Positions 39,440 to 63,481 of a stretch of 64,000 bases of DNA are shown piece by piece. Where the stretch lies: the NCBI GenBank assembly GCA_019187225.1, contig JABAQQ010000024.1:166671-230670 (forward strand), written 5' to 3'. Origin of the DNA: Saprospiraceae bacterium (lineage in GTDB: Bacteria > Bacteroidota > Bacteroidia > Chitinophagales > Saprospiraceae). Below the pieces are notes generated by a model that was given only the letters and a program-made list of their open reading frames with translations, was not told the DNA's origin and searched no databases. Position 1 is the stretch's first letter. Every line of letters starts with the position of its first letter. A program made the translations under genes and the position numbers.

Positions 39440-39517
39440 TCACTTCAAATCCTTGATACGAATATCCGCTCTATCAGCGAGATCCGCTGCAATGCGCGCC
39501 ACTTTCAGGATGCGGTC
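39440..39517 (-). pseudogene. comM/yifB 3' fragment A
   Basis: The minus strand reads [20 protein letters not shown] and IKDLK before TGA, matching the C-terminal helical domain of Mg-chelatase-like ComM/YifB (compare [20 protein letters not shown] in fragment C). Only ~26 codons remain and the usual HYRSLDR end is missing. It is the most degraded of six related fragments in the window. Confidence 0.8.
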
Positions 39518-39540
39518 ACAAGGCTGCCCAGGATTCATTT

Positions 39541-39562
39541 CGCGCAGATTTTACGCGGATTT
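39541..39562. repeat. Left inverted repeat flanking the GxxExxY pseudogene
   Basis: CGCGCAGATTTTACGCGGAT plus TT; it is the reverse complement of 40012-40033 with one mismatch. A further AATCTGCGC-type word follows at 39565-39576. Confidence 0.85.
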
Positions 39563-39590
39563 GTTGCGCAGATTTTACACAGAATGATGT

Positions 39591-39977
39591 TCAGGTAAAA
39601 GTGTTGATAATCCGTTTCAGACTTATTTTGTCCTCCAGGCTTTTTACATTGAAGTTTATAAGCAGGCCGAGTTGTTTGTTTGACAAGCGCAGATAGGTCA
39701 TCACCTGTTTGAAATGTACTTCATCTAACGATTCGACTGATTTAATTTCTACAATAACCTGTTGTTCTACCAATAAATCCAGCCGAAAACCCAAGTCGAA
39801 CTTTATCTCCTTGTATATCATAGGTATCCCCACTTGATTCTGCACCTTCAGGCCTCCTTTTTCCAGTTCATATTTCATTGCCGCCTCGTAAACACTTTCC
39901 AATAAACCGGGGCCAAGCGCAACGTGTACCCGAAAAGCAGCGCCCCGTATTTGCTAAGTAATATCATTTGTTTCCAT
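39591..39977 (-). pseudogene. GxxExxY protein (PD-(D/E)XK_3 fold) with an amber codon
   Basis: Read from the ATG at 39977 the frame gives METNDIT, an in-frame TAG, then QIRGAAFRVHVALGPGLLES and VYEAAMKYELEKGGLKVQ. The family name motif GxxExxY is present (GLLESVY). The nuclease-like core is also present: GFRLDLLVEQQVIVEIKSVE (D...ExK). Tyr is expected at the TAG position. The remaining 103-codon frame could only start at a TTG (39902), without the first helix. The role of the family is unknown; members are often multicopy. The gene is framed by 22-bp inverted repeats. Confidence 0.85.
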
Positions 39978-40011
39978 AATTTGTATTTAATCTGTGAAAA
40001 ATCTGTGCAAA

Positions 40012-40033
40012 AAATCTGCGTAAAATCTGCGCG
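40012..40033. repeat. Right inverted repeat flanking the GxxExxY pseudogene
   Basis: AAATCTGCGTAAAATCTGCG plus CG. Further AATCTGYGC-type words occur at ~39990-40065 around it, so it belongs to a degenerate cluster of the 9-mer AAATCTGCG. Confidence 0.85.
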
Positions 40034-40071
40034 AAATCAAATCTGGCGAAATCTAATCTGCGCGAAAAACC

Positions 40072-40238
40072 TCACCCCGCCCACCCCTCTCTACCCAAAC
40101 TCCTGTAATGAATCGCCCCGCCAAATCCTCGATCCTGATATCCGCACTTCCCGCCAGATCCGCCGCCGTGCGCGCCACCTTCAAAATCCGGTCGAATGCC
40201 CTTGCAGAAAGTTGCAGCCGTTCCATCGCCGTTTTGGC
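40072..40238 (-). pseudogene. comM/yifB 3' fragment B
   Basis: The minus strand reads [20 protein letters not shown] and [19 protein letters not shown], then shifts frame through loss of one base relative to fragment C (GGCGGGGC against GGCGGAGGC) before the HYRSLDR end. It forms the left end of the ~675-bp duplication described at 40072-40745. Confidence 0.85.
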
Positions 40239-40268
40239 AATGAATTGGGTAACAGGTTAAATGGAAAC

Positions 40269-40745
40269 TTACTGCCCTACTACCCTTACCATTTGCTTCG
40301 TCCGTGTGCCATACGGCGTCGTCAGTTCATACCACAGTAAGCCTGCTGCTGTCACCCCATCCAAACGTACCTGCTCGGTATTGTACCTGCCCGGGTAGTA
40401 CTTGTCCACCCGCCATAATTCCCGGCCTGATGCGTCGTATATCCGCAACTGCGCTTCACAAGCTTCCGGCAATAGAAAACTAATCACAGTTTCCCTGTCG
40501 AACGGGTAAGGCTGGTTCTGTAGCAATTGGAAATCGCCTGTTTCTGTTATTTCGCCCGTGCTCGTTATTTCACTGAACTTCAATTCCACCTGTGACTCCT
40601 CCAGCACACTGTTGTAAGCATACGCCGGAAGCGCTTCTTCATCCAGCCAAAGCGCATCGCTCAACTTACCTCCACCCTCCAACACCTTGAATGTCAATTC
40701 AAAAACGGGTGATGCTTCCTCGAGGACGAGCCCCCCTGCTTGCGA
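40269..40745 (-). pseudogene. C-terminal fragment of T9SS cargo gene (copy of 52234-54420)
   Basis: Encodes the last ~158 residues of the cargo protein at 52234-54420: the end of its cohesin-like domain (LTFKVLEGGGKLSDALWLDE) and the full type A sorting domain (GDFQLLQNQPYPFDRETVIS up to TKQMVRVVGQ). The frame is open and nearly unchanged, which implies a recent duplication, but no start or signal peptide is present, so it cannot be secreted. Confidence 0.88.
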
Positions 40746-41269
40746 TCAAGGCGTTTCGGTTCAACGCCCTGGATTATTTGGTCAAACCAATCAAGGAAAA
40801 CGAGCTGGATGAAGCGGTCAGGCGCCTTCTGAAGTCTGCCGGCAATAGTATGGAAGACCGGAACGCGTTGTCTAATCTTGAGTCGCAATCGGTTGAAAAT
40901 CAAAAATTAGTGTTGTCACCGCAGAACGGAACTTTGCGATTGCCCTTAAAACAAATTACGCATATCGAAGGAGAGCGCAATTACAGTTATATTCATTTAT
41001 CAACCGGCTCGCGCGAGTTGTCGTCTAAAAATTTAGCGCACTTTGAAGACATACTCGCCGATAAAAATTTTTTCAGGAGTCACCGTTCGTTTTTGATCAA
41101 CAGATACCATGTCGAGGCATTAAAAGACGATCATTTTGTTTTAAAAAACGGATTATACAAACGACCCGCCCCTTCAAGGCGCACCGCGCGGGTACCATCG
41201 TCAGGGGGCGGAATTCATTCAGGCTTCGGCAGAAGGATCATGTGGCGAGGGTTGTTTGCAACAAAATAG
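40746..41269 (+). pseudogene. LytTR response regulator lacking its receiver domain
   Basis: The sequence enters in the middle of a REC domain (AIKAFRFNALDYLVKPIKEN) and continues to a LytTR DNA-binding domain (LPLKQITHIEGERNYSYIHL, FFRSHRSFLINRYHVEALKD). The phosphoacceptor half of the receiver is gone, replaced by the segmental duplication at 40072-40745. The last ~30 residues (RRTARVPSSGGG...) do not look like a normal LytTR end. Probably inactive. No partner LytS-type kinase remains nearby. Confidence 0.8.
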
Positions 41270-41355
41270 TCAGTCTGCCGCGAAAAATGCAAGGCGTTCG
41301 CCTTTTTTCTCCCGCATTTTACTTCCCTGATCCAAACATCGCCCTTTTGCCGCCG

Positions 41356-43035
41356 CTATTCTTCCGCGACCGGCACAAAGCCGAAGCGCTCCACGTCGAA
41401 CAGGCCGAGGTCGGTGATCTTCAAATGCGGGATCACCGGCAAGGCCAGGAACGACAGCACCATGAACGGTGCGCGCAGCCGGCAGCCGAGCGTTTCTTTC
41501 GTCCAGGTGTCCAGAAGGGAATATTCCCGGGCGAGGGTATATCCGTCGCTTTGACTCATCAGACCCGCGATGGGCAGCGGCAGCACCCGGGTGCCGCCCG
41601 TGCCGTCGGTGGCGCTGATGCCGCCTTTGGCTTCTATGATTGCGTTTATCGCGGCACAAAGCGCTGCATCGTCCGTGCCAACCGCGACGATGTTGTGCGA
41701 ATCGTGCGCTACGCTGGATGCCAGCGCTCCCTGCCTCAAGCCGAATCCCCGCACAAAACCGACCGCCGGTTTCGAGTCCGGCGTGTAGCGGTTGACCACC
41801 GTGATCTTCAACATATCGCGCAGCGGATCGGGGGAGATCAGTCCGTCTGAAACGGGCAGCTCTTCCCAAAACGAGCCGGTCACGATCTGTCCGTCGAGCG
41901 CCTCGATGATGCGGGCGTTCGCAGTCGGGCGGTGACTCCGGGTCGCCGCCTGACCCGGTTGCGCTGAAAATCCGGGCAGTTGGAAATCAGCGGGCATTTT
42001 CGGCTTTGCCAAAAAACGGTTGGGTGCGGCAGAGTCCAAACGCGGCAAAAGACTTTGCCCGTTTTCGGCGGCTTTTTGGCCGTCGAGCCAGGTTTCGAGC
42101 ACGCGGAAAGAATGCAGGTCGGCCACGCGGACAAAATCCGCCGGATCGCCTTCGCGCAACAGACCTACCGAAAGGTTGTAGTGCCCTACGGGATTCAGGC
42201 AAGCGGCCCGGAGCGTATCGAACAGATCGCAGTCGTTGTTCAAAGCCCGCAAAACAAGTTCGTTGATGTGGCCGCGCACGAGATCGTCGGGGTGTTTGTC
42301 GTCGCTGCAAAACATCACCCTGCCGGGAAATTCCTTTATCAGCGGCCACAAGGCCTCGAAATTCCGCGCGGCGCTGCCTTCGCGGATGAGGATCTTCACG
42401 CCCAAACGGGCTTTTTCCAACCCTTCTTCATAAGTAAAGCATTCATGATCGGTCGTTATGCCTGCCGCAAAATAACGGCTGGCATCGTCGCCGCGCAGCC
42501 CGGGCGCGTGCCCGTCTACCGGCTTGCCCAATCGCCGGGCAGCGGCAATCTTTGCCAGCACTTCCGCATCGCCGTGCAATACGCCGGGAAAATTCATCAT
42601 TTCGGAAAGGTATCCGATGGCAGGATGCTGCAACAACTTTTCCACCGCAACGGCATCCATGACAGCGCCGGCAGTCTCGAACGCTGTGGCTGGGACGCAG
42701 GATGGCGCGCCGAAACAAAACTTGAAAGGCACACGCGCCGCATCGTCGAGCATAAAGGCCACCCCTTCCGCGCCCAGGACGTTGGCGATCTCATGCGGGT
42801 CGGACACAGTGGCTACGGTGCCGTGCACGACGGCAAGCCGCGCAAATTCGGCGGGCGGCAACATGCTGCTTTCGATGTGTACATGAGAATCTATAAATCC
42901 GGGCAATAGGTACCCTGCCTCTGCCGGAACGCTGCCGGTTTCCCTGATGCGTGTAATGCGTCCGCCTTCGATGCTGATCTCGGCGGGGTAAATCCGGCGC
43001 TGGTGCAGGTCAACAAGATTAGATATGATCGTCAT
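41356..43035 (-). CDS. ade: Adenine deaminase
   Basis: 559 residues, normal for the Ade family in the amidohydrolase superfamily. Metal-binding HVHIESS (His51, His53), VSDPHEIANVLG, DGHAPGLRGDDASRYF, TTDHECFTYEEGLEKARLGV and CSDDKHPDDLVRGHINELV; the C-terminal domain has GFGLRQGALASSVAHDSHNI and KGGISATDGTGG. It converts adenine to hypoxanthine and ammonia for purine salvage, using Mn/Fe. It is the one clear housekeeping-type enzyme in the rearranged region, and its frame is intact. The downstream T9SS gene shares its direction, 12 bp away. Confidence 0.96.
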   Translation of the reverse strand: MTIISNLVDLHQRRIYPAEISIEGGRITRIRETGSVPAEAGYLLPGFIDSHVHIESSMLPPAEFARLAVVHGTVATVSDPHEIANVLGAEGVAFMLDDAARVPFKFCFGAPSCVPATAFETAGAVMDAVAVEKLLQHPAIGYLSEMMNFPGVLHGDAEVLAKIAAARRLGKPVDGHAPGLRGDDASRYFAAGITTDHECFTYEEGLEKARLGVKILIREGSAARNFEALWPLIKEFPGRVMFCSDDKHPDDLVRGHINELVLRALNNDCDLFDTLRAACLNPVGHYNLSVGLLREGDPADFVRVADLHSFRVLETWLDGQKAAENGQSLLPRLDSAAPNRFLAKPKMPADFQLPGFSAQPGQAATRSHRPTANARIIEALDGQIVTGSFWEELPVSDGLISPDPLRDMLKITVVNRYTPDSKPAVGFVRGFGLRQGALASSVAHDSHNIVAVGTDDAALCAAINAIIEAKGGISATDGTGGTRVLPLPIAGLMSQSDGYTLAREYSLLDTWTKETLGCRLRAPFMVLSFLALPVIPHLKITDLGLFDVERFGFVPVAEE

Positions 43036-43047
43036 GACCGTTGTTCG

Positions 43048-44592
43048 TCATTTTTCGTGGTGCAGGATGGGCAAGTTCACTGGTTCGCCATTTTCCGGTA
43101 TGCTCAAAAAATATAACCCCGCCGGCAAAGCCTCCAGCGGAATGGCGGTTTGTTCCGTCGTCACGTCCCCCTGCCAGCACAATCGGCCGTTGTGATCGAA
43201 CAAGCCGGCGCAAACCTGTCGCGCGGCACTGTCCCCACGCCGGTATAAATAAACGGCTGAAACAGCGGGATTGGGCGCAAGATACCATACCGGATGCACA
43301 TGCGCCGGTAGAGCGTTGCCGGCCGGCTCTTCCGTGCAGTCGAATTGGAGGATGAATTGCTGATAACCGGGCGTTTTGTCGTTGTCGAGTATAAAATCAT
43401 CCCCCACAGAAAGGCTGGCATTGCGGAAATTGGAGCCGAACACCGCGCGGTCGTCGTTGGTGCAGATAAAAGGGAAGGAGCCTTCAAAATTGCCCGTTGA
43501 ACTTTGTGCGAGCAGGCTGTCGCCAAAACCGGCATCATACGAACGAACGGTCATCCCGTCTGGGGAAGAGAATTGAAGCAGGAGGCGGTCGCAGAACGGT
43601 TGCAATGCAAAATGCTGGTAATCGGCGGGAATATTGGCGGGTAGAATCGAGTCTGCCCACACGGGATCACCACCGGACGTATACGCCTTGAGCCGGTAGC
43701 AGCCGTCCTGGTTGGGCCCCGTGTCGAAATCGTTGGAAAGCGCGACGGGTTGCCCGTTGAACACCGCCACCCTGGGGTGCTCGTCGAAAGTGATGTAGTT
43801 GTATGAATGGATCCACTGCGCCGTCAGTGTCGAATCGAGCCGGGCGATATAGTTTGCATAGCCGGTGGGTGAAGGGGGAGTCGGCACGGGCAGATTGGCG
43901 AGCAGGGAGCCGGGGGAGGCCGTGCCTACGGCATACAGCCGCCCCTCGCCGTCGAGCGCAAGGTCGCTGATGCTGCGGATGTCGAGGATTTTTTCCGCCT
44001 GCAAAGTGCCGTCGAGATCATAGCGGCACAGGCTCGCCCATATCGCCTCGTGCATACCGGCGACATAGATGGCGTCGCTGCCGACCGCCAGCGTCCAGCC
44101 GAGGCAATCTTCCGGCAAAGTGCTCACGTCTACATCTATCCATTGAAAATTGCCGCCGGCATCCAGTTTGGCGATAAAAAAACTGGCGTCGTAATAGTTG
44201 GCGCCGGGAATGAGCCAGTCAGGCGCCAGCCGAAAGGTATCCACATAACCGCCGGTGATCAGCAAACCGTTGTCGGGCGTCACGGCGGCGTCGCAGATAC
44301 GGGCGATGTTTCCGGGGAATTCGCGACGCCAGAGCAGCGCCCCGTCGGGGTCGTATTTGCTCAGTACCGGATCGCCCGCCAGGAACAAGCCGGCTATGCC
44401 GATCTGTCCCAGGGTGTTTTTGAGATTCTGCGTGGAGGCAACATACAGATTGCCCGTCGCATCGAGCGCGCCCGCAGTGATCACACCGGAATCGGGTATA
44501 TGAAGAAGTCTGGCGTCAGCGAGATGTTGGGCAGCAAGCGGCTCGAAAAAGGCCGCCATTGCCAGAAGGGAAGCGAAATAAAATCGGCGCAT
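43048..44592 (-). CDS. Secreted beta-propeller-like protein with T9SS type A sorting domain
   Basis: 514 residues from MRRFYFASLLAMAAFFEPLA, a signal peptide ending at AAQ; the frame continues 59 codons upstream without signal-like sequence. Repeated blade-like units (GALDATGNLYVASTQNLKNT; AAVTPDNGLLITGGYVDTFR; LALDGEGRLYAVGTASPGSL) suggest a beta-propeller. The C-terminal ~75 residues (WYLAPNPAVSAVYLYRRGDS to GLYFLSIPENGEPVNLPIL) form a type A CTD. Predicted T9SS export; no enzymatic motif. It is 12 bp upstream of adenine deaminase, but functional coupling is doubtful. Confidence 0.85.
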   Translation of the reverse strand: MRRFYFASLLAMAAFFEPLAAQHLADARLLHIPDSGVITAGALDATGNLYVASTQNLKNTLGQIGIAGLFLAGDPVLSKYDPDGALLWRREFPGNIARICDAAVTPDNGLLITGGYVDTFRLAPDWLIPGANYYDASFFIAKLDAGGNFQWIDVDVSTLPEDCLGWTLAVGSDAIYVAGMHEAIWASLCRYDLDGTLQAEKILDIRSISDLALDGEGRLYAVGTASPGSLLANLPVPTPPSPTGYANYIARLDSTLTAQWIHSYNYITFDEHPRVAVFNGQPVALSNDFDTGPNQDGCYRLKAYTSGGDPVWADSILPANIPADYQHFALQPFCDRLLLQFSSPDGMTVRSYDAGFGDSLLAQSSTGNFEGSFPFICTNDDRAVFGSNFRNASLSVGDDFILDNDKTPGYQQFILQFDCTEEPAGNALPAHVHPVWYLAPNPAVSAVYLYRRGDSAARQVCAGLFDHNGRLCWQGDVTTEQTAIPLEALPAGLYFLSIPENGEPVNLPILHHEK

Positions 44593-47094: not shown

Positions 47095-47313
47095 TCACGC
47101 CTCCCGGCACAGCCTTCCCAATGTTTTCAACGCCTGCTCGATGCGCGGCTCCCAGACGAGGCCGTAACACAAGCGCATATAATTCCGGTATTGCCGTTGC
47201 AGCGAATAAATCTGACCGGGCGCAATGCTGATGCCATGGCGTATGGCTTTGCCGTACAGATCGAAGGCATCAATTTGAGACGGCATTTCCACCTATAGTA
47301 TGAATCCGCCGCC
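47095..47313 (-). pseudogene. C-terminal fragment of a PLP-dependent aminotransferase (MocR-like)
   Basis: The minus strand reads GGGFIL, a TAG where Trp is expected, then VEMPSQIDAFDLYGKAIRHG, ISIAPGQIYSLQRQYRNYMR and LCYGLVWEPRIEQALKTLGR. It matches the C-terminal end of MocR/GntR-type class I aminotransferases (GGGFxLWVELP...GISIAPG...YIRLxYG). Its 5' side is joined directly to comM fragment F through a shared CCCCGGC, so it is a chimeric breakpoint. Certainly non-functional. Confidence 0.85.
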
Positions 47314-47430
47314 GGGGCGGCACACGCACTCTTTTTCCGGGTGGTTGTAGTAGCCGCAGGGCAGGGTTGCGTCGCATACTTGTTACTCAAAAAATCTTTA
47401 AGGGCTAAAAAGCCCTTACCCCCCATTTCC
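47314..47430 (-). pseudogene. comM/yifB internal fragment F with its conserved flank
   Basis: The comM part (47314-47366) covers the codons for CPCGYYNHPEKECVC, with one C missing from CTGCCCCTGC, so it is frameshifted. The flank (47367-47430) reads on the minus strand GAGTAACAAGTATGCGACGC and includes the 18-bp palindrome AAGGGCTAAAAAGCCCTT (47400-47417). The same flank adjoins comM fragment D, and partially E. Confidence 0.8.
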
Positions 47431-50245: not shown

Positions 50246-50700
50246 TGCGAAAATGACTTTTCATGATAAATGGCGGAAGTGCCTGGCAGATATTGTCGGG
50301 AATTGAAAGAATAAACACACATCCTACGGTTGGCGCACGTAATCGTATGCTGGAATTTTCTCTCAAAGATATCATGATTTTACCCACTTAATGGAGGCAG
50401 GTAGAAAAAATATGTTTGGCTAGGAGAATTAATCCGCCATTCCAAAAACAGTTGCTCAAGCCCGGAGCACTCACTCCACCCAAAACATTCCCTGCAAGAT
50501 AATCACTGAAACGGGAATGAATCACACCCTCAAAACGATTTTAAAGGTTTTTCCCAGGGCGGCGTCATCGAATGGCCTCGCCTTTTTTGTTTTCACCTCA
50601 CCCGTCCCTCTCTATCCAAACTCCTGTAATGTATCGCCTCCGCCAGGGTTGCGTTGCATACTGTTTAAAAATCAATTATTTTCGACAAATGCTTTTTATA
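50246..50700. other. Intergenic region containing comM fragment E
   Basis: 50246-50590: no gene or motif recognised. 50593-50661 holds comM fragment E (listed separately). 50691-50700 is a first copy of GCTTTTTATA, repeated at 50724-50733 in the leader of the DUF4143 gene. Confidence 0.5.
50593..50661 (-). pseudogene. comM/yifB fragment E with internal deletion
   Basis: The minus strand begins GTATGCAACGCAACCC, the flank seen next to fragments D and F, and then passes directly into [17 protein letters not shown] and a TGA (50593-50595), the last codons of comM. About 420 bp present in fragment D (CPCGYY through DIRIED) are absent, so this is a deletion derivative of a D-like unit. Confidence 0.8.
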
Positions 50701-50743: not shown

Positions 50744-51940
50744 ATGGATACGATTATCGCTCGCTCCAATCAATTAGTCCTTCAGGCAGACAGGTCTTTT
50801 GTCCGTTTTCTGTACAACCAGATCCAGTGGGACTGGAGATTAATCGGCATTCGGGGTTTCCGGGGTGTGGGGAAAACTACGCTGATGTTGCAGCGGATGC
50901 AGGAGGCGCACCCTGTGGGGAAAGCCGAAGCCATTTTTCTGTCCCTGGATAATCTGTATTTCATGGACAACCGCTTGTGGGATACGGTGGATGCGCTGCA
51001 GGCAAAGGGCTACCGCTATTTTTTTCTGGATGAGGTGCATAAATATCCGGATTGGGCCAGGGAAGTCAAAAATATTTATGATGCTTTCACCGATGTAAAA
51101 ATCGTTTTTACCGGTTCTTCGATCATAGAACTGAATAAACTCGATGTGGACCTGAGCCGACGGGCAGTGCTGTACGACCTGCCGGTATTGTCATTCCGGG
51201 AATATCTGGCATTGAGCGGAAACATCCGGTTACCTGCGCTTCGCCTGGACGAAATCCTGGTAAACCACCTCGAAATCGCCTTGGATATCGTACAGAAAAT
51301 CAAACCGCTCCAGCATTTACCGCGCTATTGGGAGCTGGGTTGTTATCCTTACTTTATCGAGTCTCCCGAGTTGTACAGCCGCAGGCTGACGCAGACCATT
51401 CAATTGGTTGTGGAAACCGATCTGGCCTTTGTGGAAGGTATCCCGGTGCGGCAGACGCGCAAAATATTGCAGTTATTGCAGGTAGTGGCGCAGTCGGTGC
51501 CGTTTTCCATTAACGTAAGCAAAGTAGCGGAGCGCATTCAGATTGAGCGCAATACCCTTCTAAAATACCTGCATTTTTTGGAAAAAGCAGCTATTCTGGC
51601 CTTCCTTCGCGCGCCGGAAAAAGGCTTGTCCACTTTTCAAAAGCCGGAAAAAGTGTACCTCGACAATCCAAATCTTGCATATACTTTGTCGCCTGAACGC
51701 ACTGACAAAGGTAATTTGCGCGAAACGTTCCTTTTCAATCAGTTGCGACAAGCCTACCCGGTGCATTTTACCCCGGCCGGCGATTTCCTGGTGGACCATC
51801 GGTATGTTTTGGAAGCAGGTGGCAAAGGAAAAACGTTTGAGCAGATTAAAAACGAACCACAGGCATGGTTGGCGCTGGACGACATAGAAACCGGGCATGG
51901 GAACCGCATACCTTTGTGGTTATTCGGTTTGTTGTATTAA
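50744..51940 (+). CDS. AAA-fold ATPase with DUF4143 (copy 2)
   Basis: 398 residues. P-loop GIRGFRGVGKTTLMLQRMQE, Walker B-like YRYFFLDEVHKYPDWAREVK, sensor KIVFTGSSIIELNKLDVDLS followed by RRAVLYDLPVLSFREYLALS, typical of the family. C-terminal DUF4143 region: ISVSKVAERIQIERN-like helices (VSKVAERIQIERNTLLKYL), VYLDNPNLAYTLSPE, RETFLFNQLRQAYPVHFTPA and DFLVDHRYVLEAGGKGKTFE, with nuclease-like acidic residues. It is distant from the copy at 29397-30557. Cytoplasmic. Its leader consists of two perfect palindromes, and upstream is comM debris. Confidence 0.88.
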   Translation: MDTIIARSNQLVLQADRSFVRFLYNQIQWDWRLIGIRGFRGVGKTTLMLQRMQEAHPVGKAEAIFLSLDNLYFMDNRLWDTVDALQAKGYRYFFLDEVHKYPDWAREVKNIYDAFTDVKIVFTGSSIIELNKLDVDLSRRAVLYDLPVLSFREYLALSGNIRLPALRLDEILVNHLEIALDIVQKIKPLQHLPRYWELGCYPYFIESPELYSRRLTQTIQLVVETDLAFVEGIPVRQTRKILQLLQVVAQSVPFSINVSKVAERIQIERNTLLKYLHFLEKAAILAFLRAPEKGLSTFQKPEKVYLDNPNLAYTLSPERTDKGNLRETFLFNQLRQAYPVHFTPAGDFLVDHRYVLEAGGKGKTFEQIKNEPQAWLALDDIETGHGNRIPLWLFGLLY

Positions 51941-51954
51941 TTCTGCCTCGCCTT

Positions 51955-52035
51955 GTGTTCCCCACCCGCCCACCTGCCGCGCTTGTGTCTTTTTGACCAA
52001 GCGCACTCACTAAGATGCCGGATAACTACCAATTT
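51955..52035. repeat. Conserved block downstream of comM fragment C
   Basis: This block, centred on CCGCGCTTGTGTCTTTTT, recurs next to comM fragment D at ~62868-62920 with small indels. The repeated unit therefore extends ~80 bp beyond the comM stop codon. Confidence 0.65.
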
Positions 52036-52200
52036 TCACCCCGCCCACCCCTCTCTATCCAAACTCCTGTAATGGATCGCCTCCGCCAAATCCTCGATCC
52101 GAATATCGGTACTGCCCGCCAGATCCGCCGCCGTGCGCGCCACTTTCAGGATGCGGTCGAAAGCCCTTGCAGAAAGTTGCAGCCGTTCCATCGCCGTTTT
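52036..52200 (-). pseudogene. comM/yifB 3' fragment C
   Basis: An unbroken frame of ~55 codons reads [40 protein letters not shown] and [14 protein letters not shown], then TGA at 52036-52038. It is the exact C-terminus of ComM/YifB with no start. On its 5' side it joins unrelated spacer (GGCAATGAATTGGG) leading to the T9SS gene stop at 52234. It is the parent of fragment B. Confidence 0.9.
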
Positions 52201-52710
52201 GGCAATGAATTGGGTAACAGGTTAAATGGAAACTTACTGCCCTACTACCCTTACCATTTGCTTCGTCCGTGTGCCATACGGCGTCGTCAGTTCATACCAC
52301 AGTAAGCCTGCTGCTGTCACCCCATCCAAACGCACCTGCTCGGTATTGTACCTGCCCGGGTAGTACTTGTCCACCCGCCATAATTCCCGGCCTGATGCGT
52401 CGTATATCCGCAACTGCGCTTCACAAGCTTCCGGCAATAGAAAACCAATCACAGTTTCCCTGTCGAACGGGTTAGGCTGGTTCTGTAGCAATTGGAAATC
52501 GCCTGTTTCTGTTGTTTCGCCCGTGCTCGTTATTTCACTGAACTTCAATTCCACCTGTGACTCCTCAAGCACACTGTTGTAAGCATACGCCGGAAGCGCT
52601 TCTTCGTCCAGCCAAAGCGCATCGCTCAACTTACCCCCACCCTCCAACACCTTGAATGTCAGTTCAAAAACGGATGATGCTTCCTCGAGGACCAGCCCCC
52701 CTGCTTGCGA
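52036..52710. repeat. ~675-bp segmental duplication, copy 2 (parent)
   Basis: Counterpart of 40072-40745. Here the right boundary lies inside the complete cargo gene 52234-54420, with no break, so this is the source copy. Confidence 0.9.
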
Positions 52711-54420
52711 CCACAACGAGCGAATTTCTCCATCTGCGGCATTGTACGTGCCGAAATTGTCCACTGTCAAAGGCAATCCTCCCAGCGGTTCCACTGCCTC
52801 CAGCGTCAACCGCCCAGGGTCGAAGTGCAAGGCAAACTGCCAGGCCGCTAAATTTTGCAGGTAGTCGGCTGAAAAACTTACTTTCAGGTCCTGTCCGGCC
52901 TCCAGAGTTCGATCCTGCGCATGCAGCACAAAGGGCGTCATACCCGCACCGAAGTTGGCCGGATCGGCAAAGGTAGTTACCACATCGCCGATCTTCACGC
53001 CGTAGAAATCCTGATCCGCCTGGTTACTGCTCACGCCCGTCAGGTCGATCTGCTCGGGGAAGCCCCAGGGAGGCAGCGCCAGCGGATAGGCCTTGGGTAC
53101 GAAGCGCCAGGATTTGTTGAAAATATTCGGCGCCTGGGGGTTGCCCAATATTGTCTGCCAGATTAGCGCGGCGTCGAAAGTGGTGATGCTGTTGCTGCGG
53201 TTGACGTCCATAGCGATATGGGCATAGGGGTCGCTGATCGGGCTGAGGCCCACCACGTGCTGCTGGATGGCCAGGGCGTCACCTACGTTCACGCCATTGA
53301 GCAGGTTGGCCGTTTTTGCCGGCACGATTGAAACATTACCGTTGCCGGCCAGGGTGAGGCTGTAGTCGCCATTGTCATCGGTAGCGGCAACTCCGTTCAG
53401 ATCGCCGCTGACATTCACGGTGGCGTCTTTCACGCCACTCAGGCCGTCACCTTTCCAGAGGATGCGCCCCAGGATATCGATCGTAGGCTGGGAATTGCCA
53501 CCCAGCACAGCAAAGGGCGAGAGGGCAGTGATGCCCGTGCGACTCAGGGTGTAAGGATCGGCGCCGGCGGCAGCGCCGGTGGGCTGATTGTCCCAAATGC
53601 CGCCATCGAAGTGCGACAGGTAGGCCATCGTGCGGTCGAAGCCGGGGAGTTCTTCGCTGCCGTTCCATTGCAGTTGCAAACTCAGGTCGGAGCCGCCGGG
53701 CGTTGCTTCCTCTATGAACCAGGTACGGTCCAGGGCATTGGTTGTATAGGCCGTGCCGGAATAGCCATTGCTCAGCACATTGCCGGCAACACGTACGCGG
53801 TACAGGTCGCCGGCGCCGGCATTGGTCAGGGTGGCGGGGTTATAGCCGGTATTGCCTACGGGAAACACCACCGGTGCGTCATCTACAGTGCGTACGAGAA
53901 AGCCTGAGCCGGTCGTACGTACATGGCGCGCGGCATCGTAGCCGATGATGTCCACCACCTGCAGGTTGTAGTCGCCCACGATGACGTAATTGTCCGCGGC
54001 CTGAAAATCGAGGGCGTTTGCGACGGCCATATTATCCCCCAGAAGAAGATTGGCGCTGGTTTTATTCAGGTTCAGGTTGTAGAAGGCGCTGCCGCCGGAT
54101 GTAACGGTACTGTTTTGATCGCCGTCGAACGTGACCGTGGACGTGCCGGCATTGAACATGGCGCCGTTGGTCCAGTCGCCACCGATATAGTACTGGCCGT
54201 CGCCCTGGAGCGTGGCGCCTGAGCTGTTGCCCAGATCGCCGGGGGTGCTCAGCGTGCCGCCGACTGTGAGGATGCCACCGGAAGTATTGACGACGCCGTC
54301 GAGGGCCATGACGACCAAGCCGGAAGTGATGTTGACCTTGGCGCCCTGGTTTATAAACTGTGCCGGGGCAACATGCACCAGGCATACACTAACAACGCAG
54401 GTAAGCAGGTATTTTTTCAT
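52234..54420 (-). CDS. T9SS cargo protein with dockerin, cohesin-like and type A sorting domains
   Basis: About 728 residues from MKKYLLTCVVSVCLVHVAPA|Q; the ORF upstream to 54459 is not signal-like. The N-terminal part has repeated short strands (VNTSGGILTVGGTLSTPGDL; DGQYYIGGDWTNGAMFNAGT) as in adhesin-like beta-solenoids. It is followed by a regulatory-like domain (SGVKDATVNVSGDLNGVAAT), dockerin-like loops (LLNGVNVGDALAIQQHV; DVNRSNSITTFDAALIWQ), a cohesin-like domain (KVSFSADYLQNLAAWQFALH) and a CTD (FQLLQNQPNPFDRETVIGFL). Predicted cell-surface or secreted structural protein. It is followed by comM fragment C and its last ~158 codons are duplicated at 40269-40745. Confidence 0.87.
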   Translation of the reverse strand: MKKYLLTCVVSVCLVHVAPAQFINQGAKVNITSGLVVMALDGVVNTSGGILTVGGTLSTPGDLGNSSGATLQGDGQYYIGGDWTNGAMFNAGTSTVTFDGDQNSTVTSGGSAFYNLNLNKTSANLLLGDNMAVANALDFQAADNYVIVGDYNLQVVDIIGYDAARHVRTTGSGFLVRTVDDAPVVFPVGNTGYNPATLTNAGAGDLYRVRVAGNVLSNGYSGTAYTTNALDRTWFIEEATPGGSDLSLQLQWNGSEELPGFDRTMAYLSHFDGGIWDNQPTGAAAGADPYTLSRTGITALSPFAVLGGNSQPTIDILGRILWKGDGLSGVKDATVNVSGDLNGVAATDDNGDYSLTLAGNGNVSIVPAKTANLLNGVNVGDALAIQQHVVGLSPISDPYAHIAMDVNRSNSITTFDAALIWQTILGNPQAPNIFNKSWRFVPKAYPLALPPWGFPEQIDLTGVSSNQADQDFYGVKIGDVVTTFADPANFGAGMTPFVLHAQDRTLEAGQDLKVSFSADYLQNLAAWQFALHFDPGRLTLEAVEPLGGLPLTVDNFGTYNAADGEIRSLWSQAGGLVLEEASSVFELTFKVLEGGGKLSDALWLDEEALPAYAYNSVLEESQVELKFSEITSTGETTETGDFQLLQNQPNPFDRETVIGFLLPEACEAQLRIYDASGRELWRVDKYYPGRYNTEQVRLDGVTAAGLLWYELTTPYGTRTKQMVRVVGQ

Positions 54421-54473
54421 GATAAAATGATTGTTGATCCTGTGATAAACCCTTCTCAATCGAATAAACCGCT

Positions 54474-57179
54474 TTATTTTCCCGCACTATCCATGCGTAC
54501 CTTTAGCGCCGACACCTCCGATTGCAGGCTTTCCAGCATGGCTTTTAACTCGTTGATTTCCGCTGTTTTTTGTTGAAGTTCCTGTTGTTTTTTATTCAGT
54601 TCCTGAATGGCGGCCAGCGCGACACCTGCGGGATCGATGGTGGAGATGGATTTTTCGTCCCTGCCCAATCCGAACGCCGCATAAAAATCCTGTGCCATGG
54701 GACCGATGTGTTTAACCCGGTCATCCTCATTGATGTAATTCCATTGCGTGATCGGGAGCTGCATTATTTTGTCGAGCACTTCTGCACTGTTGACCGGCAT
54801 GATATTTTCTTTCACGTTGCGGTCGGATGCATTGGTCCAGGTTCCTCCGGAGGATAAATAGGCGCCATTGACATAGAATGCCATGGCCTCCCCCACGCCG
54901 GCTTCTTTACCGAAGCCCACCTTGTTAATATTTTTCCCAATCATAGCGGTGTTGCCGGCAGTAACATAGGTGTCGTAACCGATAGCGACACAATTGTGCT
55001 GGTTTAAAAGCGAACGTGCATTGTGCCCGACCAGGGTATTCGAGCTGCCGGCGCCGACACTGGATGCTGTATTGGTTCCGATAATCACGTTTTGTGATCC
55101 ACTGGTCAACCCGGAAGCGGCGCTTTTGCCGATCACGGTATTATTGGCCCCGGTAAACACGCCCGCGGCGCCTGCCTGGCTCCCGATGATCGTGTTACCG
55201 GAACTGGAAACGGCCTTTCCTGCATCATTGCCGATGAGTGTGTTGTCGCTACCGGAAGCGGCTTGCCCGGCATACGCTCCTAAAAATGTGCAATTGTTGC
55301 CGGCGCCGGAAAAGGATTCCCCGGCCCTTGTTCCAATCATGGTGTTTTCAGTGCCGCTGTTAAAGGATTGACCTGCACTCCTCCCGATAAAAATGTTGCT
55401 GCTGCTGAGGTTGTTCAGGCCTGCCTGGTAGCCGACGCAGACGTTGCTGCTGCCCGTCAGGTTGTTCCTGCCGGCCCCCTGGCCCGAACAGTAATTGGCC
55501 GTGCCGGTCGTATTTTCATAGCCGGCTTTATAACCGGAGAAATGATTGTAGCTGGCAGTATTGGAATAACCTGCCTGATAGCCGGAGAAATAATTGTAAT
55601 GGCCGCCAATGTTGGTATACCCGGATTGAAAACCTGAAAAATGGTTGTCATGTCCATTGGTATTCGCTTGCCCGGCTTCGTAGCCGGTAAAATAATTATT
55701 ATCCGCGCCGTTATTGCTGATCCCGGCCTTATAGCCGCTAAATTGGTTATTGCTGCCGGTGGTATTGTTTTTTCCCGCCTGGTGTCCGTCAAAGTGGTTG
55801 TTGCTGCCCGTTGTGTTTTCATCACCGGTGTAATACCCTGAAAAATAGTTCCGCTCGCCGGTCGTGTTGGCATTTCCGGAAGCATAACCAACAAAGTGAT
55901 TGTAAGAAGCGGTCGTATTGGCATCGCCGGCCAGCCAGCCGGCAAAGTGGTTGCAATTACCCGTGGTATTCAAACGACCCGCCCGGTGGCCGGAAAAATA
56001 ATTGGCATAACCTGCGGTATTGCTTTGTCCGGCCCAAAAACCGACAAAATGGTTGAGATGGCCGGTTGTGTTGTTTTGGCCTGCCTGATAGCCGATAAAA
56101 AGGCCCTCCCAGCCGGTTACGTTGGATTTTCCGGCCTGATAACCCATAAATTGATTCAAGTATCCGCCATTATTGTCTTCACCCGCTTCATGACCAATAA
56201 ACATGTTTCGGTTGTCCGAAATATTGCTGTGGCCGGCCCTGTGCCCAATAAACAGGTTCGTGCCGCCTGCCGTGTTGCTTTTGCCGGCCTCATGGCCCAG
56301 AAACAGATTGGTGTTGCCGGTCGTATTGGCAAAACCTGCATTAAAGCCAATAAATTGATTTTCAGCCCCTGTGGTATTGGAGAACCCCGCCCGGTACCCT
56401 GAAAAATGATTGCCCGAAGCGGTGGTGTTGTTATAGCCGGCAGCGGGCCCGGAGAAGAAATTATTGCTGCCGGAGGTATTGTTGTATCCGGCGCCGGCGC
56501 CCAGGAAGGTGTTCCCGCCTGTAGTTGTATTGAAACCCGCGTTGCGCCCAATCATGGTGTTGCCGCTACCGGTAGCATTAAAAGCTCCTGAGTTAGTGCC
56601 CAGGCAGGTATTATGAATCCCAGCCGTATTGGAGTAGCCTGCCCCGACGCCGATAAACGTGTTTTCGTTTTCCACCCCGTCGCCGATACCGTCATCATTG
56701 GTTCCGGCGTCCGATCCGATAAAAAGGCTGAAACCCGGCGCGGCAGCATGGAGTGTTTTCCCATCGTGCCGCATAACTTCCATGCCGCCCACATCAAAGC
56801 GGATGATGTCCTCGTCGGGGGATTCTTCCACCTGTATTTTGGTGTCGTGGTCGGCATCTTCCAGGTTGATACTGGCCATGTTCAGCCAGCCCACCCCGTT
56901 GAAATACCAGAAAGAATTGGTGTCGGTATCATACACCATCATGCCGGTGGCGGGCGCGCCGCCACTGATCATTTGGCGCTGGGGAGTGGTCATGCGGGGA
57001 ATCAGCAAACCTTTATCCGTAGATTCGAGGTCGAGGATAGCCCCGGCATTGGGCGGCGTTCCGGTGTTGTTGATGCTGACGCCACTCTGCCCCTTGAGTT
57101 GCAGGTTAATACAGATAAGTAAAGCGGCCGGCAAAAGCACCGCTTTTATTTCCGGTAGGACTGTGTCAAAAAAGCGCAT
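54474..57179 (-). CDS. YadA-like head-repeat protein with C-terminal S74 intramolecular chaperone
   Basis: 901 residues. Signal region MRFFDTVLPEIKAVLLPAAL up to LQLKGQ. After a trimeric-fibre-like N-terminus (LDLESTDKGLLIPRMTTPQR) there are roughly 25 copies of a 21-24-residue repeat of the type NTTGxxNxFxGYxAGxx, the collagen-like left-handed roll of YadA heads (~150-740). The C-terminal ~130 residues (WTNASDRNVKENIMPVNSAE then TQWNYINEDDRVKHIGPMAQ) are a peptidase S74/tail-fibre chaperone that trims itself after trimer assembly, followed by a coiled coil. Probably a secreted fibrous adhesin. It shares direction with 52234-54420, 53 bp away. Confidence 0.88.
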   Translation of the reverse strand: MRFFDTVLPEIKAVLLPAALLICINLQLKGQSGVSINNTGTPPNAGAILDLESTDKGLLIPRMTTPQRQMISGGAPATGMMVYDTDTNSFWYFNGVGWLNMASINLEDADHDTKIQVEESPDEDIIRFDVGGMEVMRHDGKTLHAAAPGFSLFIGSDAGTNDDGIGDGVENENTFIGVGAGYSNTAGIHNTCLGTNSGAFNATGSGNTMIGRNAGFNTTTGGNTFLGAGAGYNNTSGSNNFFSGPAAGYNNTTASGNHFSGYRAGFSNTTGAENQFIGFNAGFANTTGNTNLFLGHEAGKSNTAGGTNLFIGHRAGHSNISDNRNMFIGHEAGEDNNGGYLNQFMGYQAGKSNVTGWEGLFIGYQAGQNNTTGHLNHFVGFWAGQSNTAGYANYFSGHRAGRLNTTGNCNHFAGWLAGDANTTASYNHFVGYASGNANTTGERNYFSGYYTGDENTTGSNNHFDGHQAGKNNTTGSNNQFSGYKAGISNNGADNNYFTGYEAGQANTNGHDNHFSGFQSGYTNIGGHYNYFSGYQAGYSNTASYNHFSGYKAGYENTTGTANYCSGQGAGRNNLTGSSNVCVGYQAGLNNLSSSNIFIGRSAGQSFNSGTENTMIGTRAGESFSGAGNNCTFLGAYAGQAASGSDNTLIGNDAGKAVSSSGNTIIGSQAGAAGVFTGANNTVIGKSAASGLTSGSQNVIIGTNTASSVGAGSSNTLVGHNARSLLNQHNCVAIGYDTYVTAGNTAMIGKNINKVGFGKEAGVGEAMAFYVNGAYLSSGGTWTNASDRNVKENIMPVNSAEVLDKIMQLPITQWNYINEDDRVKHIGPMAQDFYAAFGLGRDEKSISTIDPAGVALAAIQELNKKQQELQQKTAEINELKAMLESLQSEVSALKVRMDSAGK

Positions 57180-57979: not shown

Positions 57980-58059
57980 GAGGTGTCATCTTTTGAGGAA
58001 GGTGACATCTCGACGGTTTTTTGAGATGTCACTCGCTCCTGCGTCGCGAATGACACCTC
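57980..58059. repeat. 80-bp palindromic element (copy 2 of 2)
   Basis: Termini GAGGTGTCAT (57980) and ATGACACCTC (58059) and the internal pair TGACATCTCG / GAGATGTCA are shared with the element at 12043-12136; the segment between arms is diverged and shorter. It lies ~95 bp upstream of the response regulator start. Confidence 0.8.
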
Positions 58060-58152
58060 AAAAAACCGGAGCACCCGGCAAGCCGAGAATCGCTGAGGTG
58101 GCGCCCACGTGGCAAAAAAGGAAAATGTCTGCGTATATTCGTGCTTCATAAA

Positions 58153-58839: not shown

Positions 58840-61800
58840 CCGCCAGTGCTTTCATTTTCAATTGCCCGGCCAACTTGATGAGCTCCGTCCCATTATTTCC
58901 ATTTTCTGCTTGTTGCTCGATAGCGTAAGCGATTTCGGCAATTTGCTCCAGCCCTAAGTAACGGAATTGGCTCTTGAGGTCGTGGGCAATAATGGACGCT
59001 TGTTCCAGTTCTCCTTTTTCGAGGCAATTTTGCAATTGCTCCAGTTGCACAGGCAATTGCGCTTTGAACAGGGAAAGGTATTGTTGTACTTTTTTTTCAT
59101 CATTGGCCAAAAGGGCTTTCAATTTTGGCCGGTTGATCCTGAGTTGATTGCCGGTCAAGGCATCTATTTTTTCCAATAATTGTAGCGCATCAATCGGTTT
59201 GGTCAGCACATCGTCCATTCCGGCCTCTCTGCATTTTGCTAATTGTTCGGGCAGCGCATTAGCTGTTACGGCGAGTATTGGTATCTGCTTCCAGCGTTCG
59301 TTTTCGGAAGCCCGGATGGCCCTGGCGGCTGCGTAGCCGTCCATGACGGGCATTTTAATATCCATCAGGATTATATCGTAATCCTGCTGTTGTAATTGCT
59401 CCAGGGCTGCTTTCCCGTTCCCGGCAATATGGATATCCGCATCGGGGATGTGTTTTTTCAGTAGTTCCGTCAGGATAAGTTGGTTGAATTCATGGTCTTC
59501 CACCAGCAGTATTTTCAAGGCTGAAAAATGGAATTCGGCTGTTGACTGTTTTTTTTCTATTCTTTCCGATGACGCCTTTTCAAACGGTACCTCGAAAAAG
59601 AGTTTCGTGCCTTTCTCCAGTTGGCTTTCAATGTGCAAGGTACTGCCGTGCAATTCCACCAATTGCCGGGCGATGCCAAGGCCAAGACCCGTACCGGACT
59701 CTGAAGAACCATGATTACCTGCCTGTTGGAAGCGTTCAAAGATCGTTTCGATCTGGCTTTCAGGAATGCCGGTTCCTGTGTCGCCGACTTCAAATCGTAC
59801 GGTTGCCGTATTTGCCGGACCGTCGGTTTCATGTATGCTGAGCCAGATTTTGCCCCGCTCGGTAAACTTTATGGCATTGGCCAGAAGATTGGTCAAAATT
59901 TGCAACAGCCGGATCGGGTCGCCCGCCAGCAGTGTGTCCTTGTCGAATTCAGTATCCAGATCAAATTCCAGGCCCTTTTCTTCTGCCTTGAACCTGAAAT
60001 TGTTGTTCAACTGGTCGACAATTTCAGTCAGCCGGAAAGGCTTGCTGGCCAGTGTGAATTTACCCGCCTCCAGTTTTGAGTGGTCCAGCAGGTCATTGAT
60101 AATAGCCAGCAAATTTTGGGAGGACTGCCGGATGGCAGAGATATATTTCGGGAGCTTGCCGCCTGGCCCGGTATCCAGGGCCAGATTGCTCAAACCGATA
60201 ATGGCGTTCATGGGGGTCCTGATTTCATGGCTCACTTCGGCGAGGAAGCGGGTTTTGTATTCGGCCTGCTGCTCGGCCAGGGCCTTTTCCCTCTTCAGCG
60301 CCAGCTGGTATTGCCGGCTTTTAAATATGGCATAACCGATTGAAACGACCATTAAAGCCAGCAAGGACTTGAACCACAGTGTTTGCCAAAATGCAGGCGT
60401 GATGGTCAGTTGGATATTCAGGCTGTCATTATTCCAAACGCCGTCGCTGTTCGATGCCATGACCTGAAAGGTATATTGACCGGGGCCTAAATTGGTATAA
60501 TTTATTTTATGCTCGGTACCCAGTTCCCGCCAGTTTTTATCAAAGCCGCTTAGCCTGCATTTATATTGATTGGCTTGAGGATTGATATAATGAAGCGCGG
60601 AAAATTCAAAGCTAATGTCATTTTCGTTGTGGGGCAGAACAATCATTCTGGTATCTTCAAATGCCTGGCCCAATAAATACGTCTCGGCTTTTACCTTGAA
60701 ATCAGTCAAAATCACATTGGGGACAATCGGGTTTTTACGGATTTGATCGGGATGGAAGGAAAATATACCATTGATCGTTCCAAGCGAAATAGTGCCGTCG
60801 GCTGCTACATGTTTGGCCTTGGATTGAAAGTGAAGCGCCTCTTTGGGAATTAAATAATTGTAGAAGGTGTCCTTGTTTTGATCAAACCGGGCAAAAAACC
60901 GGTTACCGCTCACCCAGACCCGATCGTTTTTGTCCATGATAACGGCTTGCAGTTCGTTTTCAAACATGCCTTCCTTTTTCCCGAATATCCTGAATTTTTT
61001 TGTATGAATATTGAAGTTGGTCAGCCCATACAAGGTGGCTATCCATATATTTCCGTCTTTGCCTATTGCAATGTCTTTAACCACTCCTTCCAGCACATCT
61101 TTATTAGCTGAATCCGGGAGAAACAATTCAAATTTTCCGGTTTTCTTGTCGAATCTGCCCAGACTGTTGGAGTACGTGTAGTATAACCAAATCTCATCGT
61201 CTCCGTATTGATCAAAAATGATAAAGCGGTTGGAAGAAACTTCAGGAATATCCCGCATCGGTTCGTACCATCGCCTGTCCGAGGTTTTCCAGTTTAACCG
61301 GCAAAGGCCAATGGCCGTACCAATCCAGAAAACATCTTTATCCTTGTGGTCGATAGCCATTTTGTAGATCGGCACACTGGAAAGCGTATCGCCGAAATAG
61401 ATTTTTCGAAATGTCTTTTCGTTTGCGGCACGTCTGTACAAGCCGTCGCCACTGACAGAAAACCATATATTTCCTTTATAATCCTCCAGAAACCAGTCTT
61501 CTCCTACCCCTGTAGCACGCTGCGAAAGTTCTTCGATTTTTTTCCCCTGTGTTTTTCCTTTTTCAATAGCGTAGACACCTTCAGGTGTTTTCGTTCAGAC
61601 CGTGCCTCTGCTGTCGCGCATGAGGCGGGTGACCGTATTGGCAATATTTCCGTCTACCCCAATATTTAGCAACAACTCAAAGCCGGAATGATCCCTCCTG
61701 ATCTTGCTGATCCCGTTTTCAGTGCCTATCCAAATATTCTGGAAGCGGTCTTCCAAGAGACAGTTGACCGTATTATTATTGAGGCTTTTATTACGATTCG

Positions 61801-62782
61801 CTTCATATTTATAATGATTAAACTGTTTTTGCTGAATATCGTACACACCCAGACCATTATTATCGAGGGCGAACCACGGGTTGCCATTTCTATCCAGGAT
61901 TAAAGCGTTTATTGCAGTGTTTTCTATGCCAGCGGGCAAAAAACTATTTTTTATTGCTTTAGTATCGGGATTCCAGTTGACTAATCCGGCTTTTGTCGCC
62001 AGCCAAAATGATCCATCCGACGCTTCGCATATCTCCGCGATTATTTTATTGTTTTCACTTTCATGATCAGGGTCCGGCAGGATATGCTGGAAAGTTGAAT
62101 CGCCAGAATTCAGTTTTAATAAACCGTATGATGTTCCGGCCCAAACCGTACCACGACTGTCCTCAAAAAAGATTCTTATAAAATGTTTCGCATCCGGGTT
62201 GCCTGCTTCATGGGTAGGTATAAATTTTTTAGACTTTCTATCAAACCGGAGCATATTCTTAGCGGAAACGGTAGCCAGCCAAAGGTTCCCCCGGCTATCT
62301 TCAAAAACTTTTCGGATAAGATTGGTGATCTTAGCGGTTGGTTCGTGCCGTGGCGCCGGTAGAAACCTTTGGAATTTGCCGGTTCTCCGGTCCAAAAAAT
62401 TAAGCCCGTAATTGGTACCAATCCAGATCTCGCCATTCCGGGTTTCACAGATATCTTTGATATTAGGGCTCGATAAGGAAGTGCTGTCACGGACATCATG
62501 GCGGTATACTTTGAATTCGTAACCATCGTACCGGAATAATCCTTCGTTGGTGCCAAACCATAAAAAACCAAAACGGTCTTCTTTTATATCTTCAATAAAA
62601 CTGTTAGGGTATCCATACCATGCACTCACCCGTTCGAAATCCATTGTGCCGAGTTGAGCGTGTACGAGCGCGGTGTGAAAGACAAATAGGAGAGAGAATG
62701 TACTGTATGAAAACAGGTTCCTGGTTGCCCGGTTTTGCAAATGTTTGCGGATTTGCAGGTATAAACGTTCCATATCGGCCAT
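58829..62782 (-). pseudogene. Hybrid sensor kinase (propeller-HisKA-REC-Hpt) interrupted by a Trp-to-TGA stop
   Basis: One frame of 1317 codons plus the terminal stop, broken only at codon 396 (61595-61597): ...LMRDSRGTV-TGA-TKTPEGVYAIEKG; Trp (TGG) is expected, as in the sister motif SRGTVWAG. Order: signal peptide, two-component-regulator propeller, Y_Y_Y (~680-760), TM (~775), HisKA with His852 (EVSHEIRTPMNAIIGLSN), HATPase (GTGLGLGIARQLV), receiver with Asp1141 (IILMDIKMPVMDG), Hpt with His1267 (SIIAHDLKSQFRYLG). Unlike the HTCS at 30640 it has Hpt instead of AraC and so would need a separate regulator, plausibly 58153-58839. It might yield an N-terminal fragment only. Confidence 0.88.
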
Positions 62783-62920
62783 TCTTCACTGTTTGGTTTC
62801 AAAGGTAGTTATATTTCACGATCATCCCTGGTCCTGTTTGTTGGGGAAATACCGCCTTGCCTGGTCTTCCCCATCCGCCGCGCTTGTGTCTTTTTAACCA
62901 CGCACACCCAATGCGGGATA

Positions 62921-63481
62921 TTACCCCGCCCACCCCTCCCTATCCAAACTCATGTAATGAATCGCCTCCGCCAAATCCTCTATCCTTATATCAGTACTTC
63001 TAGCCAGGTCCGCCGCCGTGCGCGCCACTTTCAGGATGTGGTCGAAGGCCCTTGCAGAAAGTTGCAGCCGCTCCATCGCCGTTTTCAGCAGCGTGAGACC
63101 GGTTTCATTGAGTTTGCACACCTCGCGTACCATGCTGCTCGGCATTTGAGCATTGGAATAAATGCCTTTCAGGTTTTTGAACCGCGCCTCCTGCACCTCG
63201 CGTGCGCGCAGCACCCGCTCGCGGATATCGGCGCTAGTCATTTTGGGTCGTTCGGCATTGGTGAGTTCTTCGATTTTCACCGGCGTCACCTCCACGTGCA
63301 GGTCAATGCGGTCGAGTAGCGGCCCGGAAATCTTTGACAGATAACGTTTTACGACACCGGGGCCGCAGACGCACTCTTTTTCGGGGTGGTTGTAGTAGCC
63401 GCAGGGGCAGGGTTGCGTTGCATACTTGTTACTCAAAATCTCCCTGAGGGCTAAAAAGCCTTTAAACTCTACATATCCCAC
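62921..63481 (-). pseudogene. comM/yifB 3' fragment D (largest) with chimeric 5' end
   Basis: 186 codons are open. From CPCGYYNHPEKECVCGPGVV through ISGPLLDRIDLHVEVTPVKI to [12 protein letters not shown] and TAA this is the C-terminal third of ComM/YifB (Mg-chelatase-like AAA+, full length ~510). The first ~22 codons (GYVEFKGFLALREILSNKYA) are not comM: they come from the flank also seen at F. The P-loop part of the AAA module is absent, so the product would be inactive. comM homology covers 62921-63412. Confidence 0.88.

Follow-up and report, generated by a model that had tools for sequence, protein, structure and literature searches.

We analyzed a 64,000-nucleotide stretch of a Saprospiraceae bacterium genome (contig JABAQQ010000024.1, positions 166,671 to 230,670; hereafter, the window), which contains six dispersed fragments of comM (yifB). 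We consider it likely that these fragments are attachment-site scars of elements that a large serine recombinase (LSR) inserts into comM at codon ~357, and that composite elements, by excision of their LSR part, restore comM. The region is best read as a record of repeated visits by comM-inserting elements. Below, G-codes are genome labels, with G000 for the window's own genome, and C-codes are contigs. The window is C8:166671-230670, and its right edge coincides with the end of contig C8.

A previous sequence-only reading of the window had claimed six pieces of comM, all of them 3′ ends on the minus strand, and this was confirmed. On searching the intact comM of the same genome against the window with BLASTN, six pieces were matched, all on the minus strand and with 72-560 bits (Table 1). 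The next-best match in the window scored 31.9 bits and the best among 100 dinucleotide shuffles of the window, used as a control, 33.7 bits, which rules out chance similarity. Protein matches of 79-100% identity exclude unrelated helical-domain sequences, the case that the same reading had set against itself. All six pieces come from codons ~354-519 of comM. The intact gene (G000:C14:1309-2868, 519 codons) sits on a different contig, in line with the claim that the window holds none. Besides the intact gene and the six pieces, a search of the whole genome with the D region as query gave three further matches, of 26-30 nt (E 0.007-0.33); with the ComM protein as query, four pieces were retrieved in addition to the intact gene, each of these pieces lying in the window region. 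The pieces do lie at boundaries of accessory genes, as had been noticed. Yet the idea that one comM-carrying unit had seeded the copies found no support, since the pieces are confined to one 24-kb region and their ends differ. Transposon seeding was rejected on the same grounds, there being no copies elsewhere in the genome and no common pair of ends.

Fragments D, E, and F have one half-palindrome in common at the comM junction. F carries the upstream junction of D (47312-47418 matches 63357-63464, 90% over 108 bp), and E consists of the comM end (50593-50645) joined to that junction (50644-50673). The D half-site recurs at the corresponding end of the relatives G018, G014, and G049; G010, G040, and G052 have it there with one base changed just ahead of the core. 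That end is marked by an XRE gene, which in the window diverges from D and is interrupted by one copy of an insertion sequence (IS) end. We counted 10 copies of this gene in seven of 42 genomes of the genus. Eight divergently adjoin a comM 3′ piece, which starts as a rule at codon 356 or 357. The two copies without comM (on G014 C218, and the second copy on G052 C184) are both preceded by half-site-like sequence. Among 10 comM 3′ junctions fetched from nine genomes, nine are adjoined by an XRE homologue (26-46% identity), and the tenth, in G129, has an LSR in its place. The XRE gene is a conserved gene at one element end. By these two marks, D has both the half-site and the XRE gene, F and E have the half-site and no XRE gene, and C, B, and A have neither. 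Fragments B and C share their comM start position, and both continue into one and the same 3′ end of a type IX secretion system (T9SS) cargo gene. The two are thus not independent, and B seems to have been copied from the C segment, or the C segment from B. C and D are alike for ~85 nt past the comM stop (51927-52200 versus 62836-63085). As a side observation, contig C1 of G007 carries five copies of the D-downstream sequence 62852-62907 without comM (L057 1284, 6841, 8857, 13393, and 18997), mostly ~5.6 kb apart.

The same pattern was found throughout the genus. A comM protein search of the 42 genomes returned 69 matches, 28 of full length and 41 partial. Thirty-two of the partial matches fall in the 3′ part of comM, 31 within codons 354-519 and one reaching back to codon 330. 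The other nine include 5′ halves or contig-edge pieces (G006 twice, G043, G013, G017, G049, and G044), an inner piece of codons 260-302 (G052), and a 34% match (G021). At least one separate 3′ piece is present in 16 genomes, those of G051 and G017 touching a contig edge or N gap. The 5′ boundary is sharp, separate pieces repeatedly beginning at codon 354-357. In relatives such as G018, G022, G053, and G041, the 3′ pieces lie downstream of comM and on one strand.

What breaks comM could be seen in the congener G049, wherein the gene stops at codon 357 and is followed, on the opposite strand, by a gene for a 514-residue LSR. This protein has resolvase and recombinase domains (PF00239 and PF07508) and gave a full-length match to the SPbeta integrase YokA (9dxh, 4.3e-9, residues 45-458). 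In G049, the half-site beside the LSR and the one at the XRE end are inverse to each other around a core, with arms that read CAACTATGCAACG and AACCCT toward the core, one arm having an extra C between them. That inverted half-sites would form attP when joined was read from the two ends of G049, and the pattern is weaker in other genera. Strong LSR matches in the genus were obtained in G049, G044, and G014, each adjoining comM, and short ones (32-33%) in G007 and G046. We then surveyed 396 genomes of the order at a threshold of E <= 1e-40 and found an LSR homologue in 19, of which 10 have comM split near codon 360, seven have it at full length, and two are unclear (G210 and G213). Both comM halves are on one contig in seven of the 10 split genomes, 21.6-75.5 kb apart (G262 21.6, G204 21.8, G277 38.0, G129 42.4, G065 49.3, G125 59.4, and G116 75.5 kb). 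Flanks were obtained for 17 of the 19 genomes: a broken comM front abuts the LSR in eight (G262, G266, G277, G125, G065, G089, G204, and G218), the LSR abuts the comM tail in G129, and the other eight have no comM within the fetched stretch. In G116, two LSR genes lie between the comM halves, facing each other and ~90 bp apart (L160 8478-9908 and 10002-11444; G116 C11). An LSR beside a comM broken at the same codon, together with the XRE gene at the other end, indicates that comM is the attachment site and that the fragments are scars of element ends. We propose that the LSR inserts elements at the NPCPCG motif, codon ~357 of comM. The sequence-only reading, which took comM for an insertion hotspot and suspected mobile DNA, was right on both points.

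Insertion alone leaves comM broken, and the genome under study has an intact copy. A way to restore the gene was suggested by G018, which has, on a single contig, an intact comM, three genes, an XRE gene, and a comM 3′ piece. The comM front of G018 is sister to that of G001 (100/100), and so is its displaced 3′ piece (97/93). In contrast, the intact tail groups with G015 (98/98), away from G001. Forcing this tail with G001 was rejected by the approximately unbiased (AU) test (p 0.020, the group having been named after the tree was seen), and forcing the front with G015 was rejected at 1e-46. An unguided single-breakpoint scan of G018 and G001 placed the switch at codon 351, a result reached by 0 of 300 shuffles. 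These placements and the switch indicate that the displaced piece is native, that the working tail came from outside, and that the switch lies near the attachment core. On sequence grounds, the intact comM of G018 is a chimera of a native front and a foreign tail, the native tail being displaced downstream. G017 also has a comM-attached tail unlike the native type, and its separate native-type piece groups with that of G049 (100/97). Front and tail differ in their nearest relative for 11 of 22 intact comM genes, a descriptive count with no control.

G065 could provide the preceding state. Its single contig holds, in order, a comM front, an LSR element, an XRE gene, comM tail a, 11 kb of cargo, a second XRE gene, and comM tail b. 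The 11-kb cargo has no LSR and includes a nor-like cluster with a COX1-type oxidase, CbbQ/NirQ/NorQ, VWA, and multicopper oxidase genes. Comparison with G027 did not separate tails a and b (81.0 versus 81.5%). Cargo without a recombinase and flanked by att sites is found in this unit and in G018; the window keeps the second att only partly. In the mechanism that we favor, an element would split comM into codons 1-357 and 357-519, with its LSR gene generally next to the comM 5′ part and the double helix-turn-helix (HTH) XRE gene next to the 3′ part, the layout observed in relatives. A composite element would have, behind its LSR element, a passenger unit in which a comM 3′ end, cargo, and an XRE gene are combined. 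Once the composite had integrated, recombination of attL with the inner attR would excise the inner LSR element. This would join the native comM front to the comM tail of the passenger and leave the cargo, the XRE gene, and the displaced native tail downstream. G065 is the likely start state: if its inner element were excised by way of the two att sites of that element, the structure of G018 would remain. Repeated rounds would build up the array. In the window, D and its XRE gene would then be the XRE-side element end (attR), judging from their sequence; F and E, by the junction they retain, would be older, deleted ends, and C/B and A may be as well.

The content of elements in the order can be illustrated by three genomes. 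G262 carries the Gabija genes GajA (2.2e-246) and GajB (9.4e-204; PADLOC), two tyrosine recombinases, and TraG/TrwB-like ATPases; G204, cytosine methylase, PRTase-CE, and NADAR genes and a TrwB-like ATPase; and G277, at the right end of its element, an AAA/OLD-TOPRIM gene. The comM tail of G277 and an older scar of codons 469-515 in that genome each precede a similar gene, one for a 23S rRNA IVP protein and the other an open frame with a very similar start. In G056, a PDDEXK_3 gene directly follows intact comM, and window positions 39531-40235, with fragment B and its PDDEXK_3 gene, match this comM end and gene at 72%. Both cases fit tails that travel with their own downstream neighbor. A wider possibility, which we regard as tentative, is that the comM core serves as a tail-exchange site, with passenger units (comM 3′ end, cargo, and XRE gene) brought in behind a serine recombinase and becoming cassettes that each replace the C-terminal 163 residues of ComM. 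The locus would then be an array of accessory-gene cassettes, ComM would be remade as a mosaic, and active elements would switch ComM off.

Several observations weigh against the scar and composite-element interpretation or limit it. Searching with the G049 LSR, we found none in the genome of the window, and every step there is therefore argued by analogy; the recombinase that the earlier reading did not see is, in relatives, the LSR that adjoins the broken comM. Seven of the 19 LSR genomes keep a full-length comM, which shows that not every member of the LSR family sits in comM. These homologues are in G290, G380, G132, G388, G099, G263, and G219, and may have another target or be in another state. 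The LSR end is joined to the 3′ instead of the 5′ side of comM in G129, in G044 and G014, where it abuts a comM 3′ piece, and in L134, a Chitinophagaceae record with the LSR beside a comM tail. The G017 case spans an N gap, and the breakpoint scan was uninformative for it. Breakpoints were placed elsewhere in G007-G009 (codon 454, 1/300), G008-G023 (codon 391, 2/300), and G041-G056 (codon 150, 3/300), pointing to a comM tail that is variable in general. In G000 itself, D and the present tail are equally distant from G009 (82.8 versus 82.9%), D groups with G009 and G007 with a support of 66/87, and grouping G000 with these two in the 3′ part was not rejected (AU p 0.586). The 3′ tree, AU tests, and breakpoint scan thus did not separate D from the present tail as native or foreign. 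C is nearer to the intact tail than D is, which rules out a simple age gradient along the array.

The position of the array is a further such point. C14 starts only 1.3 kb from the comM stop, and C8 and C14 end in the same IS. This ~126-bp end is found at six contig ends (C8, C14:1-126, C5:1-125, the end of C40, and both ends of C57), that is, at four besides these two. The array may thus follow comM, either directly or with C57 in between. Pairing the IS flanks by target duplications gave no proof of C8-C14 adjacency, and nucleotide synteny around comM in nine relatives was limited to comM itself and the PDDEXK_3 gene in G056.

An intact comM next to a displaced tail could also arise without composite elements, if an insertion was followed by repair. 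Intact comM would be re-acquired by homologous recombination, for example through transformation, with one end joined inside the element and the old 3′ half left downstream. Recombination tracts in comM have been described in 35 of 386 Acinetobacter genomes, according to the available text of PMC11472951. However, homologous exchange would switch anywhere and would usually swap the front too, while the G018 switch at codon 351 adjoins the core and only the tail is foreign; repair would also require an end joined without homology every time. We regard it as unlikely.

Two other explanations appear far less probable still. One partial comM copy might have been multiplied by ordinary rearrangements together with T9SS genes and then decayed, and one such duplication did happen, as B and C share 300 nt at 96%, T9SS gene end included. 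Yet the codon-357 boundary, the half-site, and the XRE gene recur in other species and families, and D has kept an open frame, with a dN/dS of 0.074 to the intact tail at a dS of 0.72. Two functional tails would be expected to give such values, and a local copy in decay would not: D and the intact tail diverged under purifying selection, and their sequences fit both having worked until recently. It might also be argued that the XRE gene and the comM 3′ piece form a two-gene module with a function of its own, encoding a ComM C-terminal protein of 163 residues together with its regulator, and no scar. The adjacency of the XRE gene is conserved, and several fragments have open frames and low dN/dS (0.025-0.087), but intact comM pairs are in the same range (0.024-0.078), the frames of D and others continue back through the half-site with no conserved start, and F, E, C, B, and A are broken. 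We give this module as little credit as local duplication, and we retain element-end scars in comM as the preferred interpretation.

Both the target and the logic of such elements have precedents in print (PMC10083194 and PMC3146451, in their available text). Durrant et al. 2022 reported that homologues of one gene are targeted by 12.4% of predicted site-specific integrases, which are LSRs as here, and that target genes are enriched in DNA competence genes (PMC10083194); the annotation of that gene fits comM/yifB. The available text of that paper describes no scar array, comM tail replacement, or XRE-end gene, and does not mention Bacteroidota ("bacteroid", 0 occurrences). The ssrA islands of Dehalococcoides, integrated by the CcrB-like DsiB (McMurdie et al. 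2011, PMC3146451, available text), similarly stand in tandem downstream of one gene with 3′ end repeats between them; the integration module is present in 16 of 31 and absent in 15, and there is overlap between att and the LSR 3′ end, comparable to the LSR here, which extends into comM. In contrast, their target is the tmRNA gene with a 20-bp repeat and their six-gene module includes a second, small serine recombinase, whereas the target here is in the middle of a protein-coding gene and has a tail of 163 codons beyond it, which allows chimeric proteins to arise. Cis-mobilizable elements (CIMEs) and accreted integrative and conjugative or mobilizable elements (ICEs and IMEs) are also alike in that decayed elements keep att, lie in tandem beside active elements, and can be mobilized along with these. 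Insertion is described there as mostly at gene ends, serine-recombinase IMEs disrupting dispensable genes, and what is available of that review describes no case of a foreign tail restoring a protein gene that had been split (PMC5704250). For the staphylococcal cassette chromosome (SCC), CcrB is the best NCBIfam match of the LSR (NF047343), yet at 156.8 bits it falls far below the curated cut-off of 900, and SCC membership was rejected. The parallel that the sequence-only reading had drawn with Acinetobacter holds for the target, since AbaR and other elements, some with defence systems, interrupt comM there. It does not extend to the enzyme, as the comM-targeting element is named Tn7-like and no LSR is described in the accessible part of PMC11472951. 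According to the same source, ComM aids the uptake of foreign DNA by transformation, so elements that insert into comM may protect themselves from removal. In the open-access literature, which leaves most subscription papers outside, we found neither comM scar arrays nor comM tail swapping described for Bacteroidota, and no description of the conserved XRE end. The comM site holds a history, with scars readable in order and comM genes with swapped tails. Questions that become testable are how frequently such elements arrive and leave, whether comM is turned off and later on again, and in what way genes that have no recombinase of their own (defence genes, the nor-like cluster, and T9SS cargo) are carried along.

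Table 1. Features of the comM fragment region, in window coordinates
Feature	Position	Strand	Evidence
Fragment A, comM codons 480-503	39446..39517	-	BLASTN: 39517-39446 = comM nt 1438-1509, 72.5 bits
PDDEXK_3 gene downstream of B	39591..39902	-	PF13366
Fragment B, comM codons 466-519 + stop, near-copy of C segment	40072..40235	-	96% over 300 nt; BLASTN: 40235-40072 = comM nt 1396-1560, 86.1%, 191 bits
Fragment F, comM codons ~354-376 + half-site + leader of putative lost XRE-type end	47307..47418	-	Match to D junction; BLASTN: 47374-47307 = comM nt 1061-1129, 77 bits
Fragment E, comM codons 503-519 fused to element half-site, putative internally deleted scar	50593..50673	-	Sequence match; BLASTN: 50645-50593 = comM nt 1508-1560, 74.3 bits
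DUF4143/AAA_14 ATPase gene, diverges from E half-site, cargo candidate	50744..51940	+	PF13173, PF13635; PADLOC PDC-S01 3.6e-31
Sequence downstream of C, common to downstream of D (62836-62922)	51927..52035	.	80% over 274 bp including comM part
Fragment C, comM codons 466-519 + stop, junction side lost	52036..52200	-	BLASTN: 52200-52036 = comM nt 1396-1560, 93.9%, 253 bits
Fragment D, comM codons 357-519 + stop, open frame, putative attR-type element-end scar	62921..63412	-	comM 3′ side; BLASTN: 63412-62923 = comM nt 1069-1558, 85.3%, 560 bits
Junction of comM (codon ~357) with element half-site, inferred to be one half of a palindromic attP	63408..63440	-	Relatives
XRE gene, two HTH domains, TTG start, divergent from D, 3′ end cut by IS end	63486..63890	+	PF01381
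Repeated IS end, stops contig	63874..64000	.	Same ~126 bp at six contig ends

Among the genes beside the fragments, the PDDEXK_3 gene, which we take to be of the GxxExxY type, is bracketed by a 56-nt inverted repeat (39528-39583 and 39991-40046, 88% complementary). Next to fragment B, positions 40269-40697 repeat the 3′ end of the T9SS cargo gene 52234-54459 in truncated but nearly identical form. Finally, the Peptidase_S74-bearing gene 54474-57179 contains repeats spaced at multiples of 51 nt, within 55444-56652.

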